Shown: positions 21,262 to 60,454 of the stretch, in pieces | Position numbering within the stretch: position 1 is the stretch's first letter | Layout of the letters: each line of letters starts with the position of its first letter | DNA from: Cellulomonas composti | GTDB taxonomy: Bacteria; Actinomycetota; Actinomycetes; Actinomycetales; Cellulomonadaceae | Direction of reading: 5' to 3' | NCBI RefSeq assembly: GCF_007990245.1 | Contig: NZ_BJWG01000002.1 | Coordinates: forward strand, 124,001-188,000 | DNA length: 64,000 nt | Position numbers and translations under genes: made by a program | The notes under the pieces: generated by a model | The model's database searches: none | What the model was told of the DNA's origin: nothing | Seen by the model: only the letters and a program-made list of their open reading frames with translations

Positions 21262-24200
21262 TCAGCGCTCCTGCGCCGGTTGGGTCCGCAGCGTCACAGC
21301 TCCGACGAAGTACTGGTCGCCCGTCGTCATCGGCGTCAGCGCGTCGACGTCGCACGGCAGCCGCGTCGGCACGAAGCCCTTCGCGTCGACGCCCAGCGAG
21401 GACGCCCAGCGCCAACCCGTCGCGGACGAGTCGAACGCGTTGGCCGCGCTGCCCGTGGTCCCGTCGCCGCGCAGCGGCGTCAGGTCCGTCGTCGCGTCCG
21501 TGCACGCGCCCGCCAGCCGCAGCCGGTCGCCGGTCAGCCCACGGTCGCCCTCCCAGCCGACGACGCCGAACCGCGCGAGCGAGCCCGCAGGAGCGGCGAA
21601 GTGGAACGCCGGCGGCGGCGCCGACGTGCCCACCCACAGGCCGCCGTCGTAGATCGTGACCTGCGCGTCGCCGGGCGCGGAGTACACGACGACCAGCGAC
21701 CAGCCCGCGTAGTACGTCGGGTCGCTGTCGGTGCGCTTCGCGCTGACGGCGGCGTCGGCGACCGACCACTCTCCGGGCCCGAGCTTGGTCACCAGCGCCG
21801 TCACGTCGGCGAACGACGAGTAGTACAGGCGGTCCGAGCTGTCGGTGCGCGTCGTCGGCTCGCCCGTCGCGGTCACCGGCACGTACGCGGCACCCGGTCC
21901 GCGCAGCAGCACCACATCGGTGGGTCCGCTCCACGTGTCCTTCGCGCCGCGGTTCGCCGACCAGTACAGGCCGGCGAACACGATCTTGCGGTCCGCGGGG
22001 ACCGAGACCTTCGTCGACGACGAGACCGGCACGCTCGCGCGCGGACCCTCGGGCGGCGCCTCGTCGAGCGCGACCATCGTCTGGCTGTTGTTGTCGGCGC
22101 CGCCCGCGAGCGCCTGCGTGCACGTGGTCGTGCCCGCCTTGCACGTGAGCAGCGGCGCACCCGCCTCGGTGACGTCCCAGCCGCTGCCGGCCGGCGTGCT
22201 GAACCGCGTCGCCAGCCCGCCCGAGCGACCCGGGACCGGAGCGCTGGTGGTGACCGGCTCGGCGACCCCCGCCGCGGTCGCCGAGATCTCGACGGCGCCC
22301 GGGACGACGTACTGCGAGCGCACGGGCAGCAGGACCTCGACGACCTCGCCCGCCGCGAGCACCGGCCACGAGCAGACGACCGTCCGCAGCGACTCGGAGC
22401 CGGACGCGACGCACGCCGACGGCCACGCAGCCGACTTCACGTCGGCGACAAGGTTGGCGGGCAGCTCGACGGTGGCCCGGACCTTCGCCGCGTCCGCCTC
22501 GGGCGGTGCGGCAGCGGCCACCGCGAAGGCGATCTGACCGGTGTCGTCGGCCTGCAGCGCGACGCCTGCGTTCTGCAGCGCGAGCACGGGCGCCAGCCCG
22601 GTGACCGGCAGGGCCAGGTGCTCGCCGGCGTCCGCATCCCGCGCCGAGGCCCGCACGACCAGGTCGCCGAGATCACCCGTCGCGCCCGCGTCGACGGTCA
22701 CGGACACGACGAGCGAGCTCGTCGCACCCGGCTCGAGCTCCGGTCCCGTGCACCACAGCCGGTCCGACGCCTGGATGCGGACCAGCGGCTCGCGCGCCTC
22801 CTCGACGGGCACCCCGCACGCCCACCCGTCACCCACGGCGCCGGTCCAGGTGACACCGACCGGCAGGGTCACATCGAGGTTCGCGGCCTGCGCGGACAGG
22901 TCGCCGTCGTTCGCGACGACGAGCTGCAGCGACGACGTGCGGCCGCCCGCGACCGTGAGCGTCGAGTCCGGCGAGGTCACGGTCATCCGGGCGGGTCGCA
23001 GCACGTCGAACGGCACGACGAGGGCCGGTCGGCCGCCCGCCGGCGTCACGTCCACCGTGAGCTCCGCGCTCCCCAGCTCACCCGGGTCCGGGGCGACGAG
23101 CGTCAGCGCGAGCGGCGCGGTCGCGCGTGCGGCGAGCTCACCCCGGGCGCACGTCACGTCGGCGCCCTCGGCCTGCGGTCCGACCACGCCGACCTGGTCA
23201 CCGGGCGGCGTCGCGCACGTCCAGTCACCGGTCTCGCCACCCGCCCAGAGGACGCCCGCCGGCAGGTGGACGGTCGCGGTCGGGGCGGACGCCGGCAGTC
23301 CCCCCGCGTTGCGCAGCGCGATCGTCGCGGTCACCGGACGCCCCGCGACGAGCGTCGGCACCTGCTGGTCCGCCGCGAGCGCGATTCGCGCGGGCGCGGG
23401 GCGCACGACGACCTCGATCGGCTCCGGCTGGTAGTCGATGTCCTCGCCGACGACGCTGAGCTGCACGTCCGCACCCGACGCGTCGAAGGACTCGTCGATG
23501 CTCACGCGCACCGACAGGCGTGACGTCGCCCCGCCGGGCAGCGCGTCGAGCGTGCAGCGGGCGTGCTGGCTGTCGGCGACCGTGCACGACCACCCCGGGT
23601 CGGCCGCAAGGAAGCCCCAGGCCGTCGCGGCGCGCGACATCCCGGTCGTGAGGCTGTCGACCGTCACGCCGGTGGGCGTCGTGAGCTCGGCGACCAGCGA
23701 GCGCGCCGGCTCGTCGCCGCTGTTGCGCAGGGTCAGCGCGAGCTCCTGACCCGCGCTGCCCGCGTCGAGCGCGAGGCCGTCCGACGGGAGCTCGACCGAG
23801 ACGTCCGCGGGAGCCGGCGGAGGCGTCGTCGGCTCGACCGTGGGTTCGACCGTGGGCTCGATCGTCGGCTCGACGGTGGGTTCGATCGTCGGCTCAGTTG
23901 TCGGCTCGCTCGTCGGTTCAGTGGTCGGTTCAGTGGTCGGCTCGCTCGTCGGCTCCGCCGTGGGGCCCGCCGTGGGGCCCGCGGTGGGACGGGACGTCGG
24001 GTCGGCACTCGGGTCGGATCCCGGGCCCGGGTCGAAGATCGGTGCGTTCGTCGGGCCCTGCGTCGGGTCGCCCGGGTCGTTCGTCGGGAGCGGTCCCGCG
24101 GACGGGTCGGCCGACGAGGACGGCTCGCCGCCCGGTGTCGTCGCCGACGGGGAGCTCGTGGCAGCGACCGGGCCGAGGTCCGGGTCGTCGGAGCCGGAGC

Positions 24201-25296
24201 GCAGGCCGGTGACGACCGCGACCGCGACCGCGGCGACCACGATCGTGCCCGCGAGCACACCGACCACTCCTGCCGGGATGCTCGCGAGGAACGCCGCGAC
24301 GCCGCCGACCGAGCTCGCCGCCGAACTGCCCGCAGCACCACCTGCCGCTGCCGCGCCTGCCGCGGCACCGCCGCCCGCACCGCCGGCTCCCGCCTCCTTG
24401 CCGAGCTGTCCGAGCGTCGCGCCACCGGCACCGCCGGCACCGCCCGCCGCCGCACCCCACGCACCGGCGGCCGCGAGACCGCCGCCGACGGGCAGCGCGT
24501 GCGACAGCGCGCCGACGCCGACAAGACCGAGCACGAGCGGCGCGACGACCGCGCGCATGCCGTGGTTGACGTCGCCCAGCTCCAGCACCAGCGCCCGGCA
24601 GTCACCGCACCCGTCGAGGTGCGCCTCGACCTTCGTGGTGTCACGCGCGCTGAGCCCGCCGCGCACGTACGAGCCGAGCTGCCCGGCGAACGCCCGGCAC
24701 TCCTGCTCGAGCGGGTCCTGCAGGTGCTGCTGCAGGTACGCCTGCCGCAGTCCCTCGCGCGCGCGGTAGGACAGGGCAGCGACACCGTTGGCCGTCAGAC
24801 CGAGGATCGGCGCGATCTCGGCGGGCGTCAGCCCCTCGACCTCGGTGTGCCACAGCACCGCCTGCCACCGCTGCGGCAACGAGTGGAACGCACGCGCGAC
24901 GACGCCCCGCTCGAAGCCCGCCAGGGCGGGTTCCTCCGCCGTACCCGCGAGCGCGGTGCCCGCCTCGAGCTCCGCGACGTCGTCGGTGGGTCGTGCACGC
25001 CGCGCGCCCTCGCGCCGCACCGCCGCGACCCGGCGCACCACGGTGAACAGGTAGGCGCGGAACGCCTCGTCGGGACCGTGCCCACGGCCCAGCGCGCCGT
25101 ACACGGCGGTGAACGAGTCCGCGACGACGTCCTCGGCGTCCGCGTCGCCGTCGACGTACCGGCGCGCGACGACGAGGGCCGCACCGGCGTGCCGCTCGTA
25201 CAGCCCGGCGAAGCCCGCGGGGTCGCCTGCGCGCGCGGAAGCGATCAGCTCCGCGTCGCTGCGGACGACGTCCTCGACATCGGTGTGCGCGGTCAA
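21262..25296 (-). CDS. Single-chain ECF sigma factor / zinc-finger anti-sigma / membrane / surface protein
   Basis: One uninterrupted frame of 1344 residues joins modules that are normally separate. Residues 12-90 are sigma region 2 (SDAELIASARAGDPAGFAGLY, DAEDVVADSFTAVY). Residues 135-185 are region 4 (LPQRWQAVLWHTEVEGLTPAEIA with LGLTANGVAALSYRAREGLR). Next comes a zinc-finger anti-sigma motif HLDGCGDC (HxxxCxxC, about 226-233). Two hydrophobic segments follow near 250 and 330-355, and a Pro/Thr/Glu repeat stalk. The outer part, about 850 residues, has several DUF11/CARDB-like beta-sandwich domains and a C-terminal domain with LYWSANRGAKDTW. The TTG at 25296 follows GAGAGG; an ATG at 25335 lacks a ribosome site. 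The outside part probably senses a wall or carbohydrate signal and the inside part acts on transcription, perhaps after release by proteolysis. It resembles the fused ECF groups reported in actinobacteria (from memory, ECF48/ECF53-like). Confidence 0.9.
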   Translation of the reverse strand: MTAHTDVEDVVRSDAELIASARAGDPAGFAGLYERHAGAALVVARRYVDGDADAEDVVADSFTAVYGALGRGHGPDEAFRAYLFTVVRRVAAVRREGARRARPTDDVAELEAGTALAGTAEEPALAGFERGVVARAFHSLPQRWQAVLWHTEVEGLTPAEIAPILGLTANGVAALSYRAREGLRQAYLQQHLQDPLEQECRAFAGQLGSYVRGGLSARDTTKVEAHLDGCGDCRALVLELGDVNHGMRAVVAPLVLGLVGVGALSHALPVGGGLAAAGAWGAAAGGAGGAGGATLGQLGKEAGAGGAGGGAAAGAAAAGGAAGSSAASSVGGVAAFLASIPAGVVGVLAGTIVVAAVAVAVVTGLRSGSDDPDLGPVAATSSPSATTPGGEPSSSADPSAGPLPTNDPGDPTQGPTNAPIFDPGPGSDPSADPTSRPTAGPTAGPTAEPTSEPTTEPTTEPTSEPTTEPTIEPTVEPTIEPTVEPTVEPTTPPPAPADVSVELPSDGLALDAGSAGQELALTLRNSGDEPARSLVAELTTPTGVTVDSLTTGMSRAATAWGFLAADPGWSCTVADSQHARCTLDALPGGATSRLSVRVSIDESFDASGADVQLSVVGEDIDYQPEPIEVVVRPAPARIALAADQQVPTLVAGRPVTATIALRNAGGLPASAPTATVHLPAGVLWAGGETGDWTCATPPGDQVGVVGPQAEGADVTCARGELAARATAPLALTLVAPDPGELGSAELTVDVTPAGGRPALVVPFDVLRPARMTVTSPDSTLTVAGGRTSSLQLVVANDGDLSAQAANLDVTLPVGVTWTGAVGDGWACGVPVEEAREPLVRIQASDRLWCTGPELEPGATSSLVVSVTVDAGATGDLGDLVVRASARDADAGEHLALPVTGLAPVLALQNAGVALQADDTGQIAFAVAAAAPPEADAAKVRATVELPANLVADVKSAAWPSACVASGSESLRTVVCSWPVLAAGEVVEVLLPVRSQYVVPGAVEISATAAGVAEPVTTSAPVPGRSGGLATRFSTPAGSGWDVTEAGAPLLTCKAGTTTCTQALAGGADNNSQTMVALDEAPPEGPRASVPVSSSTKVSVPADRKIVFAGLYWSANRGAKDTWSGPTDVVLLRGPGAAYVPVTATGEPTTRTDSSDRLYYSSFADVTALVTKLGPGEWSVADAAVSAKRTDSDPTYYAGWSLVVVYSAPGDAQVTIYDGGLWVGTSAPPPAFHFAAPAGSLARFGVVGWEGDRGLTGDRLRLAGACTDATTDLTPLRGDGTTGSAANAFDSSATGWRWASSLGVDAKGFVPTRLPCDVDALTPMTTGDQYFVGAVTLRTQPAQER
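23829..23991 (-). repeat. Tandem 12-bp repeat coding a xEPT/xGPT stalk
   Basis: About thirteen imperfect 12-base units encode a run of EPT(x) and GPT(x) tetrapeptides in the sigma-fusion protein. Units differ at one or two bases (Thr, Ser, Ile, Val in the variable place). The stretch links the membrane segment to the outer domains and is the type of Pro/Thr-rich stalk that spans peptidoglycan and is often O-glycosylated. Copy number is likely to vary between strains. Confidence 0.85.
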
Positions 25297-55120: not shown

Positions 55121-55153
55121 ACGGTCGCCAGGACGGTCGCTAGGACGGCTCGG
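55118..55153. repeat. Three-copy 12-bp tandem repeat bridging convergent TAG stops
   Basis: TAGACGGTCGCC, AGGACGGTCGCT and AGGACGGCTCGG follow one another. The first holds the TAG of the AfsR-like gene (55118-55120). The join of the second and third gives the minus-strand TAG (55140-55142) of the TPR gene. Confidence 0.8.
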
Positions 55154-58100
55154 TCGAACCGTCCAGGTCGACGGCGGACAGCTCGACGGCCGACGGGTCG
55201 AGCGTCAGGCCCCACGGCGCGGGGTCGATCCCCTCGGCGGTGCACGCGGCGAGGTACGCCTCCCGCAGCTGCTCGCTGTCGGCGGCCGGGACGTACGACG
55301 CGGCGCGCCGGACCTCGAACTCGAGCGCGAACGCCGCGTCGTCCCCTGCCGCGAAGGCCCGCAGTGCGCTCGCGAGGTACCCGACGATCTCGTCGGACGG
55401 ACCGCCGGTGGCGACGAGCAGCACCCCGAGGCGCGCGTCGATCCGTGCGGTGAGCTCGAGGTCGTCGAGGAACTCGACCGCGCGCGCGGCGTCCCGCAGC
55501 CACGCCAGGCCGCGCTCGGGCGACTCCTCAGCCTCGCGCATGCCCAGCCACAGGTTGACCTGCCCCCGGGTCGACGGGTCCGGGTGCTCGGCGGCCTCCG
55601 CGAGCGCCTCGAACGCGTCGAGCGGCCGGCCGGCGTTGTCGTACGCGGTCGCCGCGGCCATCGCCGACGTCAGATAGGGCGACCAGTCCTCCCGCGCGAG
55701 CAGCTCGTGCAGCAGGCGCGCCTCGGTCGCCCGGCCCGCGTCCACCGCGGCGGCGAGCTGGCCGCGCAGCACCTCGTGCAGCGCGTACGACGACTCGGGG
55801 TCGAACGCGGTTCCGACGAGCAGGCGGTAGGCGTCCGCCGCCTGCTCGAACGCCCCCGCCTCGCGGGACAGCCGCGCCTGCACCGCGAGCAGCGCGGTCA
55901 GCGCGTCGGTGTCCGCGCCGTAGCGCTCGGCGAGCTGTCCGAGCTGCGCGTCGTCCTCCGGCGGCTCGACCCCCGCACCGGAGACGAGCGCCCGCGCGCG
56001 CTCAAGGGTCTCGGCCACGGAACGGGTCGCCGCCTCCTGTGCGAGCAGTGCCTGCGCGTCGATCCACAGCTCGGCGGCGTCGAGCAGCTCGCCGGCGTGG
56101 GCGGCCCGCTGCGGCAGCTCGGCGGCGTGCGCGAGCGCCTCCGCGTCCCGGCCGAGCGTCGCCTCCGCGAGGACCAGCGTGGCGAGCCGCTCGGCGGTGT
56201 CCGGCAGCCCGAGCAGGTGCAGGTCGCGTTCGACCTCCTGCGAGCGCCCGAGGATCGCGAGCGCCTCGGCGCGGCGCAGCGCGCGGTAGGGGTCGAGCGG
56301 TTCCAGGGCCGCGAGCTCGGCGAGCGCGGCCCGCGCCTCCTCGAAGCGCCCCTGCCGCACGAGGAGCCCCCAGCGCACGCCCAGCACCATCGCGGGGTCC
56401 CACACGTCCGGATCCACCGCACCGAGGTCCGCGCTCGCGCCCGTCAGCTCTCCCACCTCCTTGCGGCACCACGCGCGCAGCAGGATCTGGACGCCGCGCG
56501 GTTCCTCGCCGAGCCCCTCGAGGTAGGCGAGCGCCTCGGCCGGCTGGTGGGCCCGCACGAGGTCGACGAAGCGTTCGTTGCTCGCCTCGCCCTGCGTCGG
56601 GTCGAGCTCCAGGGCGCGGCCGCGCGCGTCCCGGGCGGCCACCGTGAGCCCGACCGAGTGCAGGAGACGCGCCAGGGTCGCCCACGTCGCCGCGTCGCCC
56701 GGGTCGAGCAGGGCCGCCTTCTCCGCGCGCTGGAGCGCACGCCACCGCAGGCCGGGGACCGGCGGCAGCGCGAACGGGTCCTCGGGCGGTTCGGCCGCGG
56801 GCCGGACGGCGTCGAGGTCCTCGGCGATGTTGGCGCCGCTCCAGTACACCCACGCGTGCTCGGTGCCCGGTGACGTGCCGTCCGCCGACATCCGCGTCGT
56901 CCACGACTGCCACGCCTCCTCCGCCGCGCCGGCAGCGTCGAGGTCGGGGCGGGTCTCGCCGACCCAGCCGCGCAGACGCAGCGCCTCCGCGAGGTACCAG
57001 CCGGCCAGGGCGTTCGGTCGCTCGGTGTCCAGGAGCCCGCGCAGCAGGCCGATCGCCGCGTCGAGCCGCTCGGCGTCGCCGAGCCCGCCCCACACGTCGC
57101 GCTTCGCGACCTCGAGCTCGGCCTCGTCGAGGAGCGCGCGCGACGCGCCCAGCTCCCGCAACGCGGCGGCGCGCACCCGGTGCACCTGTTCGTCCGGATA
57201 GGTCTCCGGACCGCGGACCCCGCGGCTCAACGCCTCGTCACAGGCCCCGAGCGCCTCGGCCGCGAGACCGGCCCGCAGCCGGGCGACCGCGAGCTCACGC
57301 AGGTACAGCCCGCTCTCCTGGCGCAGGTTGACGCGTTCGGCGAACAGGAGACGCCGGACGCCCCACTGCGCGAACGCGTCCCGGTAGAGCTCGGCGGCGG
57401 CCGCGACCTCACCCTGCGCCTCCGCCACGAGGGCCAGCGCGAGCGCGCCGTCGCCGCCGTTGGCGTCGTCCTCCGCCACGGCGGCCGCGTGCCGCGCCGC
57501 CTCCTCGACCGCGCCCCGCCACAGCAGCGCGGCGGCGAGCTCGCACCGCACGCGCGGACCCGGGTGCTCGTCGAGGTAGGCGGCCAGCCCTGCCTCCGCC
57601 TCCTCGTTGCGCTCGAGGAACATCAGCGCGAACGCGCACAGCACGGCGAGCTGGGCCCCCGCGTCCGACGTCGGCGTCCCTCGTCGTGCGTTCGGTGCCA
57701 GCCAGGTGCGGAGCGACTCGAACCGCACGACCACGTCGTGCCAGTCGTGCATGGCGATGGCCGGCGCGATGCCGCCGAGCACCGCCAGCAGGTCGTCGTC
57801 CCGGCCCGCGAGCTCGACGTCCGCGCGGTCGTCGTCGAGCGCGTCCCGCACGGTGCGCACGAGCTCGCTCGCCACCGCGAACCCCGCCGTCACCGCGGTG
57901 TCGGCGTACTCCTCGACGAGCAGGCCGTCCGCCCGTCGGGCGTCGCGCAGGCGCATGCGGCGGATCCGGTCGGCCGTCGTCCGGAGCCCTTCGTCGGAGA
58001 ACCGTCGCCGCGACGACTCGACCTCTGTCGCCGCGTCGCAGCGCGCGACGAGCTCGTCGAGCCTGGCCTGCAGACCGACGGCCGTCCGCCGGAGCTCACG

Positions 58101-58226
58101 CAGCTCGTCGAGGCCCCCGACGCGCTCCAGCAACGTCGAGATGGACACCGCGAGCGCGTCGTCCACCGCCTCCGTGCCGCCGCGCAGCGTCGTCGTGACG
58201 GCCGCCGGCACCGTCGCCTCGCTCAT
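55140..58226 (-). CDS. Large TPR-type helical protein of the Trypco/CHAT operon
   Basis: The 1028-residue protein is almost wholly alpha-helical and Ala/Leu/Glu-rich, with many degenerate tetratricopeptide units. An example is the region around ALLDPGDAATWATLARLLHSVGLTVAARDARGRALELDPTQGEASNERFVDL. The first 110 residues (TLLERVGGLDELRELRRTAVGLQARLDELVARCDAATEVESSRRRF) look like a coiled-coil. There is no membrane segment or catalytic motif. Its ATG overlaps the protease-CHAT stop by four bases (ATGA), so it is the third gene of a coupled operon. In TPR-CHAT systems the TPR part binds the regulator or substrate; here that role would be on a separate polypeptide. That is inference. Confidence 0.82.
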   Translation of the reverse strand: MSEATVPAAVTTTLRGGTEAVDDALAVSISTLLERVGGLDELRELRRTAVGLQARLDELVARCDAATEVESSRRRFSDEGLRTTADRIRRMRLRDARRADGLLVEEYADTAVTAGFAVASELVRTVRDALDDDRADVELAGRDDDLLAVLGGIAPAIAMHDWHDVVVRFESLRTWLAPNARRGTPTSDAGAQLAVLCAFALMFLERNEEAEAGLAAYLDEHPGPRVRCELAAALLWRGAVEEAARHAAAVAEDDANGGDGALALALVAEAQGEVAAAAELYRDAFAQWGVRRLLFAERVNLRQESGLYLRELAVARLRAGLAAEALGACDEALSRGVRGPETYPDEQVHRVRAAALRELGASRALLDEAELEVAKRDVWGGLGDAERLDAAIGLLRGLLDTERPNALAGWYLAEALRLRGWVGETRPDLDAAGAAEEAWQSWTTRMSADGTSPGTEHAWVYWSGANIAEDLDAVRPAAEPPEDPFALPPVPGLRWRALQRAEKAALLDPGDAATWATLARLLHSVGLTVAARDARGRALELDPTQGEASNERFVDLVRAHQPAEALAYLEGLGEEPRGVQILLRAWCRKEVGELTGASADLGAVDPDVWDPAMVLGVRWGLLVRQGRFEEARAALAELAALEPLDPYRALRRAEALAILGRSQEVERDLHLLGLPDTAERLATLVLAEATLGRDAEALAHAAELPQRAAHAGELLDAAELWIDAQALLAQEAATRSVAETLERARALVSGAGVEPPEDDAQLGQLAERYGADTDALTALLAVQARLSREAGAFEQAADAYRLLVGTAFDPESSYALHEVLRGQLAAAVDAGRATEARLLHELLAREDWSPYLTSAMAAATAYDNAGRPLDAFEALAEAAEHPDPSTRGQVNLWLGMREAEESPERGLAWLRDAARAVEFLDDLELTARIDARLGVLLVATGGPSDEIVGYLASALRAFAAGDDAAFALEFEVRRAASYVPAADSEQLREAYLAACTAEGIDPAPWGLTLDPSAVELSAVDLDGSTEPS

Positions 58227-60007
58227 GTATCCACCTTGTCGTGCGGCCCACCGCCCAGCACGAGCGCACCCGGTACGAGGGTGACGAGCACGGGGAACGA
58301 CCAGTGCCGACGCCCCTGAGCCAGCAGCCGGCGGCCCTTCTGGACCGCGACGTGCACGGGCAACCCCTCGCCGACCCGGCGGTAGAACTCCTCGAAGAAG
58401 GCGCGCGCCGCGTCGGCGTCGACCGGCAGCGGGAACGCGAGCACCGCGCGCACGCCGGCCGCCAGCAGGGTGGCGGCGAACACCGAGAGGTCCGGGGGCA
58501 CCTCCGTGTCCGAGACGCGCACGGGCTGCAGCACGACGAGGGCGGGTTGGTCGTCGGCCTCGGCGAACGCCTCCGCCAGCTCCTCGACCGGCAGGCTCAC
58601 GCGCGAGCTCCACGGGTAGTCGTCGACGTCGACGACGTCGATCGAGTTCTCGACGCGGGCGCGGGCGACCATGTGCAGGATCGTCGGGCCGGCCCGCAGC
58701 ACGTCGCGCAGCGCGAGCGCGGTCGCGTGCTCGTCGCCCGACGACGGCATCAGCGTGACGGGGCCTGCGGCCTTCGCGAGCCGCACCACGTCGTCGGCCG
58801 CCTGACCCAGCAGGCGGTCCTCCTGGTCGCCGGGCGACCGGAAGACGGCGATCCGCGTCGGCCCCGGGATCGTCAGCGCCTCGGGGACGACGGCGCGCAT
58901 GGTCCGCACCAGCGTCGTGCGCGGGTCGGCACCGAGCCAGACCGCGGCGGGGTCGGCCGCCCCGGTCCCGTTACCGGGCAGGTGCAGCGCCTCCCACGGC
59001 AGGTAGAGCAGGTCCTCGTCGACGTCGTCGCGGAAGTGCAGCGCGACGTCGAGCACCTGCGCGTCGTGCGTGAGCAGGTCGCGCAACCGCGCGCGCGCCT
59101 CGTCGTTCCACAGGGCTTTCGCGAGCGTCTCCCCGACGACCTGGGACTGCTGCGTCTGGGTCAGCCGGTTCGTGGCCTTCAGCATCCGGAACAGCTTCGC
59201 GACGTCCGGCCGCAGGGTGTTGAGGTCGATGCGGAACTCGTCGGCCCAGTCGAGGTCCGGCGACGGCGAGGACAACGTGACGGTCCAGCGCTCCTCGACC
59301 TGGCCGATGTCGACGAGCAGCGTCCGCGACCCGACGGCCGGGAGCCGGTCCAGCCCGGCGAGCGTGTCGCGCTGCTGCGCCGTCATCCGGTCCCGCCAGC
59401 GGCGGTCCACCCGGCGCGCGTCGGAGTTCTCGAACCGGAGCCGGTCGAACGCGGTGAACGCCGCCTCGACCGGGACGGCCAGCCCACCGAGGGTCGACTC
59501 GACGTCACGCGACCGTCGGATCACGCCGACCACGGTGCCCGTGCGCAGGTCGAGCAGCGGCGCACCGCTCAGGCCCGACTGCACCTGACCCGCCTTGATC
59601 TTGAGCTGTCGCGGGGGGCCACCCTCCGGACCCTCGTAGCTGTAGGTCCCGGAGGTGCCCTCGGCCTTGGTCGGCGGGTAGCCGTAGGTGTACAGGTCGT
59701 CACCGATGCGCGGCACGTCCCCCAGCGACGCGACGGGTTGGTGCCCCCTCGTCGTGACGGTCAGCAGCGCGAGGTCGTTGCGCGTGTCGAGCAGCGGCGC
59801 GCTCAACGGCCGGGTCGACTCACCCGTGCGCGGGTCGACCACGTCGATGATCGCCCGGTCCCCCGGCCGCTCGAGCGCGCGCTTGACGACGTGGTGGCAG
59901 GTCAGGACCTTGCCAGGGGCGACGAGGAAACCCGTCCCGCTGACCTCGCTGTCGACGTCGATCCTGACGGTGGCCTGCCGCAGGAGGTCGGCGAGCTCGT
60001 CGCTCAC
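58223..60007 (-). CDS. Trypsin-like protease fused to a catalytically dead CHAT domain
   Basis: The 594-residue protein has an N-terminal S1 trypsin-like domain with an intact triad: His39 in VLTCHHVV, Asp78 in TRNDLALL and Ser147 in QSGLSGAPLLD. It has no signal peptide, so the protease is cytoplasmic. After a helical linker, residues 375-580 match a CHAT (caspase-like) domain: TRIAVFRSPG, HATALALRDVLRAGPTILHMVARA, QPALVVLQPVRVSD, AATLLAAGVRAVLAFPLPVD and FYRRVGEGLPVHVAVQKGRR. The catalytic His (usually HG) is Arg449 and the Cys position is Val496, so CHAT activity is lost. The GTG at 60007 overlaps the Trypco1 stop (GTGA). The CHAT part may now bind a partner that switches the trypsin on. 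Confidence 0.85.
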   Translation of the reverse strand: MSDELADLLRQATVRIDVDSEVSGTGFLVAPGKVLTCHHVVKRALERPGDRAIIDVVDPRTGESTRPLSAPLLDTRNDLALLTVTTRGHQPVASLGDVPRIGDDLYTYGYPPTKAEGTSGTYSYEGPEGGPPRQLKIKAGQVQSGLSGAPLLDLRTGTVVGVIRRSRDVESTLGGLAVPVEAAFTAFDRLRFENSDARRVDRRWRDRMTAQQRDTLAGLDRLPAVGSRTLLVDIGQVEERWTVTLSSPSPDLDWADEFRIDLNTLRPDVAKLFRMLKATNRLTQTQQSQVVGETLAKALWNDEARARLRDLLTHDAQVLDVALHFRDDVDEDLLYLPWEALHLPGNGTGAADPAAVWLGADPRTTLVRTMRAVVPEALTIPGPTRIAVFRSPGDQEDRLLGQAADDVVRLAKAAGPVTLMPSSGDEHATALALRDVLRAGPTILHMVARARVENSIDVVDVDDYPWSSRVSLPVEELAEAFAEADDQPALVVLQPVRVSDTEVPPDLSVFAATLLAAGVRAVLAFPLPVDADAARAFFEEFYRRVGEGLPVHVAVQKGRRLLAQGRRHWSFPVLVTLVPGALVLGGGPHDKVDT

Positions 60008-60339
60008 TGCGGTTCCGGCGCGACCGGGTCGGAGCTCTTCCACAGGAGCCGGACCTGGAACGTGGCCGTGGCGCCGCCCTTCACGACGAGCGACGTCAGC
60101 CGCCCCGCCTCGACCGCGACGTCGAGCCCGAACGTCACCTCGGCCTCGTCGGGCCGGGCACGCCGCAGCGCGTCCGTCATGGCACGCGCGACACGACCCA
60201 CCGACTCGGTGAGGTCGCTGAACGCGAGGACGTCGCCGAGCGCGGAGACGTCCTGCTCGCGGTCGCCTCCCCGGGCGACGACCTCGATCTTGACTGGCGG
60301 AGCTCCGGCCTCGAGCTCCGCGGTGACGACCCGGTCCAT
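60004..60339 (-). CDS. Trypsin-co-occurring domain 1 (CU044_2847-type) protein
   Basis: The 111-residue protein (DRVVTAELEAGAPPVKIEVVARG, DVLAFSDLTESVGRVARAMTDALRRARPDEAEVTFGLDVAVEAGRLTSLVVKGGATATFQVRLLW) is an all-domain Trypco1/CU044_2847 member. Two beta-rich parts flank a helix, and the end carries the conserved-looking KGG and FxVRLxW. Such small proteins are regularly encoded beside trypsin-like proteases and effector-associated-domain proteins in predicted conflict systems. It is the first gene of the operon and overlaps the protease gene by four bases. It is probably a regulatory adaptor or substrate of the protease. Its ribosome site is the GGAGGGG stretch upstream of the ATG at 60339. 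Confidence 0.82.
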   Translation of the reverse strand: MDRVVTAELEAGAPPVKIEVVARGGDREQDVSALGDVLAFSDLTESVGRVARAMTDALRRARPDEAEVTFGLDVAVEAGRLTSLVVKGGATATFQVRLLWKSSDPVAPEPQ

Positions 60340-60454
60340 CTCGACCCCGCCCCTCCGGAGGTGATTGCGACCTTTCGGACACGCTACTCTCGCGCGGTCC
60401 GTGGGGGCACGGGTGAGATCGACCGGGTCGTCCAGCGGTCGTCGAGCGGTGTGG

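Follow-up and report, generated by a model that had tools for sequence, protein, structure and literature searches.

What kind of machine do three overlapping genes build when they bring together a Trypco1 protein, a trypsin-like protease fused to a CHAT domain, and a giant helical protein of the TPR type? The question is raised by a cassette in a 64,000-nucleotide stretch of Cellulomonas composti DNA (contig NZ_BJWG01000002.1, positions 124,001 to 188,000; this whole stretch is called the window below), for which an original prediction had proposed a conflict or immune protease system. Across the six cassettes that we compared, the trypsin triad is kept and the CHAT catalytic residues are lost, and we read the cassette as a split Craspase/separase-like switch, in which a dead CHAT unit and a separate helical scaffold would gate the trypsin.

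A trypsin-like protease fused to a dead CHAT unit

The three genes and the key parts of the fusion protein are as follows.

60004..60339, minus strand: Trypco1 gene, 111 residues, ATG start (PF19493, E=3.6e-15; NCBIfam CU044_2847 family, E=1e-15)
58223..60007, minus strand: trypsin::pseudo-CHAT gene, 594 residues, GTG start
59423..60007, minus strand: trypsin-like domain, about residues 1-195, with the Trypsin_2 match and the triad
59891-59893, 59774-59776 and 59567-59569, minus strand: trypsin triad H39, D78 and S147, invariant in 6/6 fusions
58253..59332, minus strand: CHAT unit, about residues 226-585, with no Cys anywhere in the unit
58661-58663 and 58520-58522, minus strand: catalytic-position residues of CHAT, His replaced by R449 and Cys by V496
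55140..58226, minus strand: gene for the giant TPR-type helical protein, 1028 residues, ATG start

Pfam places a Trypsin_2 match at residues 24-162 of the fusion (E=7.3e-17) and a CHAT match, above its cut-off, at residues 291-567 (E=6.2e-10); with the Trypco1 match, these bear out the three domains named in the original prediction. With its triad in place, the trypsin domain is apparently an intact protease. The predicted active CHAT protease does not hold up, because the His/Cys dyad is gone in all six fusions, where Arg (in two cases Phe) replaces His and Cys is missing from its catalytic position. Judged by these residues, the CHAT unit in the window is not a CHAT protease. A structure predicted for this unit alone has a fold like those of Csx29 and separase, and also matches DdvA, an anti-sigma factor; in the whole-fusion alignment the rows of CHAT-only proteins were misaligned.

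Taken by itself, the third protein gives weak Pfam TPR matches, the best of which (E=0.0027) does not reach the curated cut-off, and a profile of its four-member family finds PDB entries of consensus TPR proteins, the best at 4e-33. Its AlphaFold2 model (mean pLDDT 76.6, pTM 0.54) consists entirely of helices in a long array, and the structures nearest to that model belong to TPR proteins, among them SKI complex subunits, Ctr9 and OGT, in keeping with the helical TPR protein that had been predicted. The predicted dependence on nucleoside triphosphates found no such footing: no MoxR, vWA, VMAP-C or STAND domain, and no nucleoside triphosphatase (NTPase) domain, was found in the trio.

A unit gained and lost within the genus

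Four further features describe how the genes are joined and where they sit.

60004..60007, minus strand: GTGA overlap of the Trypco1 and protease genes, 4 nucleotides
58223..58226, minus strand: ATGA overlap of the protease and TPR genes, 4 nucleotides
55121..60454, no strand assigned: whole insert, 5334 base pairs (bp), between a convergent SARP gene (ends 55120) and an ABC permease gene (ends 60455)
60381..60415, minus strand: upstream element CACCCGTG...TAGCGT, candidate promoter, alike in genomes G059, G032 and G041

The operon proposed for the three genes is confirmed in its coordinates and in both overlaps. A single 4-nucleotide overlap is unremarkable, because one occurs in five of the window's 32 pairs of neighbouring same-strand genes; conservation of the overlaps across cassettes is a stronger point than any one of them. 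The trio recurs in the same order in C. terrae (G059), G032 and G024, again overlapping by four nucleotides at each junction, so that the overlap is kept at 8/8 junctions of the four Cellulomonas cassettes. Among 81 genomes of the genus, the window's included, four carry an intact trio and one a relic; over the same genomes the TPR profile finds four full-length copies and one fragment, and Trypco1 scores above its cut-off in six. In the form CACCCGTG...TAnCGT the upstream element is common to the window, G059, G032 and G041 and is not in G024; to go by its letters, it is possibly a promoter. An inverted repeat at 60325-60432, with 35-nucleotide arms that are 80% complementary, spans the Trypco1 start codon and the upstream region in the window; the aligned sequences upstream of the other cassettes show no sign of it.

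The sites themselves are informative. Pairwise, the 20-kb stretches around the three other cassettes (17, 14 and 18 genes called) have only the trio in common, and matched against the window's genes they return the trio and two ABC ATPase cross-matches at 30% identity only. The SARP and permease genes that flank the window's insert stand -19 to +85 bp apart at 21 of 23 loci in the genus, and 420 and 432 bp apart at the other two; in the window the gap is 5334 bp and holds the cassette. (The permease search matched 51 of the 81 genomes and returned 30 loci, 28 of which, the window's included, form a close permease group; 23 of these have the SARP gene inside the flank that was fetched, and this count is based on them.) At the site that is occupied in G032, G041 retains a relic (L065:6148-10006) that has lost the protease and joins Trypco1 to the end of the TPR gene; three other genes, one of them for an ABC ATPase, separate this relic from the exchanger gene on its flank. 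Nine of the 11 matched proteins flanking this site are 89-98% identical between the two genomes, and the two outermost are 61% identical. From the empty-site gaps, the relic and the lack of a common flank it follows that the trio is a unit gained and lost together, and dispensable. Between carrier genomes the protease and TPR proteins are 42-63% identical, Trypco1 67-74%, and the ABC permease 79-86%. Because the cassette is patchy, lies at different sites and has diverged more than its neighbour gene, we take it to be accessory rather than core.

Distant cassettes and a parallel one

Two genomes of another family also carry the trio, which brings to five the other genomes in which the three genes occur together; the original prediction would have been refuted had they never been found together outside the window, and it withstands that test. 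In G794, Trypco1 (E=1.6e-12), a 655-residue trypsin::CHAT protein and a 1045-residue TPR protein are encoded 1 nucleotide apart, and in G275 a Trypco2 gene (E=2e-26) stands in the place of Trypco1 and is followed by partners of 676 and 1058 residues. Neither has the 4-nucleotide overlaps, their genes lying 1 to 24 nucleotides apart. The two fusions align with the Cellulomonas profile over 552 and 532 columns (E=6.7e-20 and 8e-15, hhalign); in the genus of these genomes the fusion was found in two of the 59 genomes searched. In 6/6 cassettes the third gene is of the TPR type, and in 6/6 TPR and CHAT lie in separate genes.

A different arrangement occurs in G017, a genome of the same genus as the window that lacks the trio. 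Here a subtilase (405 residues), an active CHAT protein (372), a dead CHAT protein (470), a 1279-residue TPR protein and a 494-residue protein are encoded in a row (L020:7052-16132). The 1279-residue protein is homologous to the window's TPR protein (hhalign probability 96.5, E=8.6e-10, 924 columns); as controls, two unrelated large proteins stayed below 1% probability, and 20 shuffles gave E values of at least 0.06. A dead CHAT with this TPR family therefore recurs with different active proteases, and this supports the split-switch reading of the trio. The 1279- and 494-residue proteins also contain a segment like the C-terminal part of FlhA/FHIPEP (E=3.6e-12 in the former and 2.1e-6, narrowly missing the cut-off, in the latter), which was unexpected here; similar C-terminal ends in G275 and G794 are suggestive (hhalign E=6e-4, probability 29, shuffle minimum 0.04).

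A genome scan with the fusion profile gave 20 loci, one of which (C. terrae) spans the whole fusion and 19 of which match only within residues 1-227. Across the order, the TPR profile matched one of 347 genomes, the window's own, in a search that scored two candidates per genome and so may have missed some. Across the class, the fusion profile matched seven of 394 genomes, and a short TPR profile 14 of 384, mostly in generic TPR stretches. For G275 this class-wide fusion search reported the trypsin part only; its full trio was missed, and the distribution counts are therefore lower bounds. When 40 trypsin proteins that have a long C-terminal region were compared in that region with the CHAT profile, four matched, all of them cassette members used in the profile and two of them the same C. 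terrae protein, and the other 36 gave E values of at least 0.04. Trypco1 is more widespread (70 of 394 genomes of the class). Forty Trypco1 loci were hand-picked from the match list rather than drawn at random; five had no Trypco1 gene in our own gene calling, and 24 of the remaining 35 have an adjacent trypsin gene. CHAT was found in none of the 40 with a profile that had been built up from dead CHATs and could overlook distant members. In three genomes Trypco1 lies directly beside dyad-intact CHAT proteins without trypsin (L066:2059-4472, L073:7879-10192 and L068:9238-12409), and Trypco1 is therefore not tied to trypsin alone. At two other loci (L133:9037-13068 and L143:9255-13520) the trypsin domains beside Trypco1 lie within very large proteins (1343 and 1421 residues).

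We also looked for mobile carriers. On plasmids, the fusion and TPR queries gave trypsin-domain matches in five records, none covering 80% of the query, and no TPR match; phages gave no match for the fusion, and 40 pattern matches on viral contigs contained no relatives. With no plasmid, phage or viral-contig relative, we rejected carriage of the cassette by such elements.

Comparison with known systems

Separase, whose fold the cassette's CHAT unit resembles, is an active cysteine protease whose helical part acts on its caspase-fold part; the cassette instead joins a serine protease to a dead CHAT. The CHAT fold is likewise the point of likeness to Csx29, the TPR-CHAT protease of the type III-E CRISPR Craspase, in which, according to passages of PMC10028731, the TPR part acts on the CHAT part. 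Against that description, the cassette has lost the dyad, encodes its TPR as a separate protein and has a trypsin appended. RAMP proteins (PF03787) were found in none of the six carrier genomes, and in four of 14 controls.

The family link to Trypco/trypsin conflict systems is supported. Sections of Kaur et al. (2020; PMC7159879) describe Trypco1-trypsin pairing as typical of VMAP systems, with Trypco1 and Trypco2 mutually exclusive beside trypsin genes, and the cassettes all have a Trypco1 or Trypco2 gene beside a trypsin-like domain. What the cassette has in common with the MoxR-vWA ternary conflict systems of the VMAP kind, as outlined there, is a larger fusion protein with trypsin as its N-terminal domain and a Trypco1 gene immediately upstream. 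The difference is that the cassette has CHAT where those have VMAP-C, and a giant TPR protein in place of the MoxR ATPase and vWA. Pfam finds no VMAP-C in the fusion at E<=1, and neither MoxR nor vWA was found among the window neighbours scanned (SARP, ABC permease, ABC ATPase, LytR, DUF5684 and ribonucleotide reductase), both being left unsearched elsewhere in the genomes. A comparator locus, L130, is of the VMAP type, with a trypsin::VMAP-C protein (VMAP-C E=2.5e-34) followed by an AAA ATPase. With no VMAP-C, MoxR, vWA, dyad, fused TPR or RAMP found, the cassette lacks defining features of both VMAP systems and Craspase.

The trypsin-like domain is also related to those of Avs1b (AVAST), LmuA and the RT-protease systems (PADLOC; PMC12799240, in part). 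These differ in their fusion partner, and no nuclease partner was recognised in the cassette; an MBL-fold nuclease in particular was found neither among its three proteins nor among the scanned window neighbours. In the open-licence PMC literature that we searched, where Trypco/trypsin systems and TPR-CHAT Craspases do appear, we found no description of the trypsin::CHAT and TPR trio, nor of a pseudoprotease logic for CHAT domains.

A proposed gated protease switch and its rivals

The cassette is probably a protease switch for stress or self-sacrifice. In our reading, the superhelix of the TPR protein would dock on the dead CHAT, by analogy with Csx29 and separase, and the resulting platform would sense a trigger and keep the trypsin inactive or off its substrate, with Trypco1 as a possible adaptor or inhibitor. 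On the trigger, the trypsin would be released or allosterically activated and would cut a target, most likely with growth arrest or death of the attacked or stressed cell as the result. Whereas domains, residues and conservation as a unit can be read from the alignments and the fold from its model, we infer the assembly, gating, trigger and outcome, and to this cytoplasmic gated switch as a whole we would give an even chance. More tentatively, and with a chance just short of even, the cassettes may represent a distinct NTPase-free class of protease switches, in which a dead CHAT of the separase/Craspase type and a separate giant helical scaffold form the constant sensor-and-gate module, proteases are swapped in (a fused trypsin, or a subtilase with an active CHAT), and Trypco1 and Trypco2 are interchangeable.

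Several points weigh against the gated switch. The contact between TPR and CHAT and the role of Trypco1 are things that we only infer. The Pfam CHAT match falls below its cut-off in G794 (E=0.0044) and G275 (E=0.0035), and the CHAT call in these two rests on alignment of their C-terminal parts with profiles: E=4.2e-14 and 9.7e-14 against an 11-member CHAT profile (20 shuffles each gave at least 0.09 and 0.029), and 5.4e-8 and 0.0012 against the four Cellulomonas CHAT units alone. Their TPR partners match the window family weakly (G275 E=1.3e-5, probability 81; G794 E=1e-3, probability 21; shuffles at least 0.057), while matching each other at 8.3e-23. The TPR homology in G017 was missed by the genome search and by HMMER at E<=0.01, and reaches only E=0.045 in BLASTP. 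Of ten CHAT proteins without trypsin, three partial ones were left out of the alignment. In the CHAT tree, the dead CHATs need two changes, 20% of bootstrap trees allow one, and G017b is a long branch; the tree is compatible with one or more dyad losses and leaves the number open. As to defence, we recognised no gene for a dedicated toxin or nuclease within the cassette, and the tested neighbours form no clear defence island.

The main rival is a housekeeping or stress-response module for regulated proteolysis, for example regulator turnover, with an equal gating anatomy and no conflict role. We consider it unlikely, though by some way the most serious alternative. Most of the flanking genes that could be identified are of housekeeping type (exchanger, SDR, ABC, ribonucleotide reductase, LytR) with little defence signal, no toxin or nuclease partner was recognised, and the CHAT fold also matches the anti-sigma factor DdvA. 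If the module served housekeeping, however, one would hardly expect a cassette so patchy (4/81 intact, 1/81 relic), at different sites, and more diverged than the neighbouring ABC permease gene.

It is improbable that the trypsin activates a pro-effector such as a nuclease in trans, as happens in Hachiman and AVAST, where a nuclease and a protease are paired. Parts of PMC12799240 give a precedent, and the trypsin domain resembles those of Avs1b, LmuA and the RT-protease systems, but the conserved trio has no second effector gene; on this reading the TPR protein or Trypco1 could yet be what the trypsin cleaves. More doubtful still is a reduced VMAP ternary system that draws on MoxR and vWA genes at other genomic sites: the Trypco1-trypsin pairing (excerpts of PMC7159879) and the L130 comparator speak for it, whereas CHAT takes the place of VMAP-C in the fusion and the third gene is TPR-type throughout. 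That CHAT is a working cysteine protease as in Craspase, with the trypsin secondary, we hardly credit at all, since the Pfam match and Csx29-like fold that favour it face a dyad lost in all six fusions and a window unit without a single Cys.

Neighbouring genes

The original prediction had placed a convergent STAND ATPase gene beside the cassette. A convergent gene is indeed present, but its matches (BTAD E=1e-7 and AAA_22 E=1.2e-7, with nSTAND6/NB-ARC weak and below cut-off) identify it, on its domains, as an AfsR/SARP-type regulator. A SARP gene has no counterpart beside the other three Cellulomonas cassettes, and we rejected the neighbour as a component. Taken overall, then, the prediction stands as to its domains, operon and family link, its active CHAT, NTP dependence and STAND component find no support, and the abortive infection that it suggested is a conjecture.

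PADLOC, run on 20 chosen neighbour proteins, returned one SduA-like protein, one weak Csa3 match (E=1.8e-4) and one ABC ATPase with generic ATPase matches. The SduA-like (DUF4263) protein (L017:4744-5439, E=4e-8) is encoded close to the C. terrae cassette, from which a single gene separates it. A defence role of the cassette is plausible.

Elsewhere in the window, at 21262-25296 on the minus strand, one frame of 1344 residues contains a sigma-70 region 2, a zf-HC2 anti-sigma zinc finger, a PT-rich stretch and DUF11, and so joins a sigma and an anti-sigma factor to what is likely a surface domain.

Implications

At about 5.3 kb and three genes, the cassette is small enough for transfer to a laboratory host. 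If the gated-switch reading is true, the Trypco/trypsin conflict systems would gain a compact set of three genes in which no NTPase is recognised, and the caspase/separase fold would prove to be reusable without catalysis, as a platform that controls another protease.
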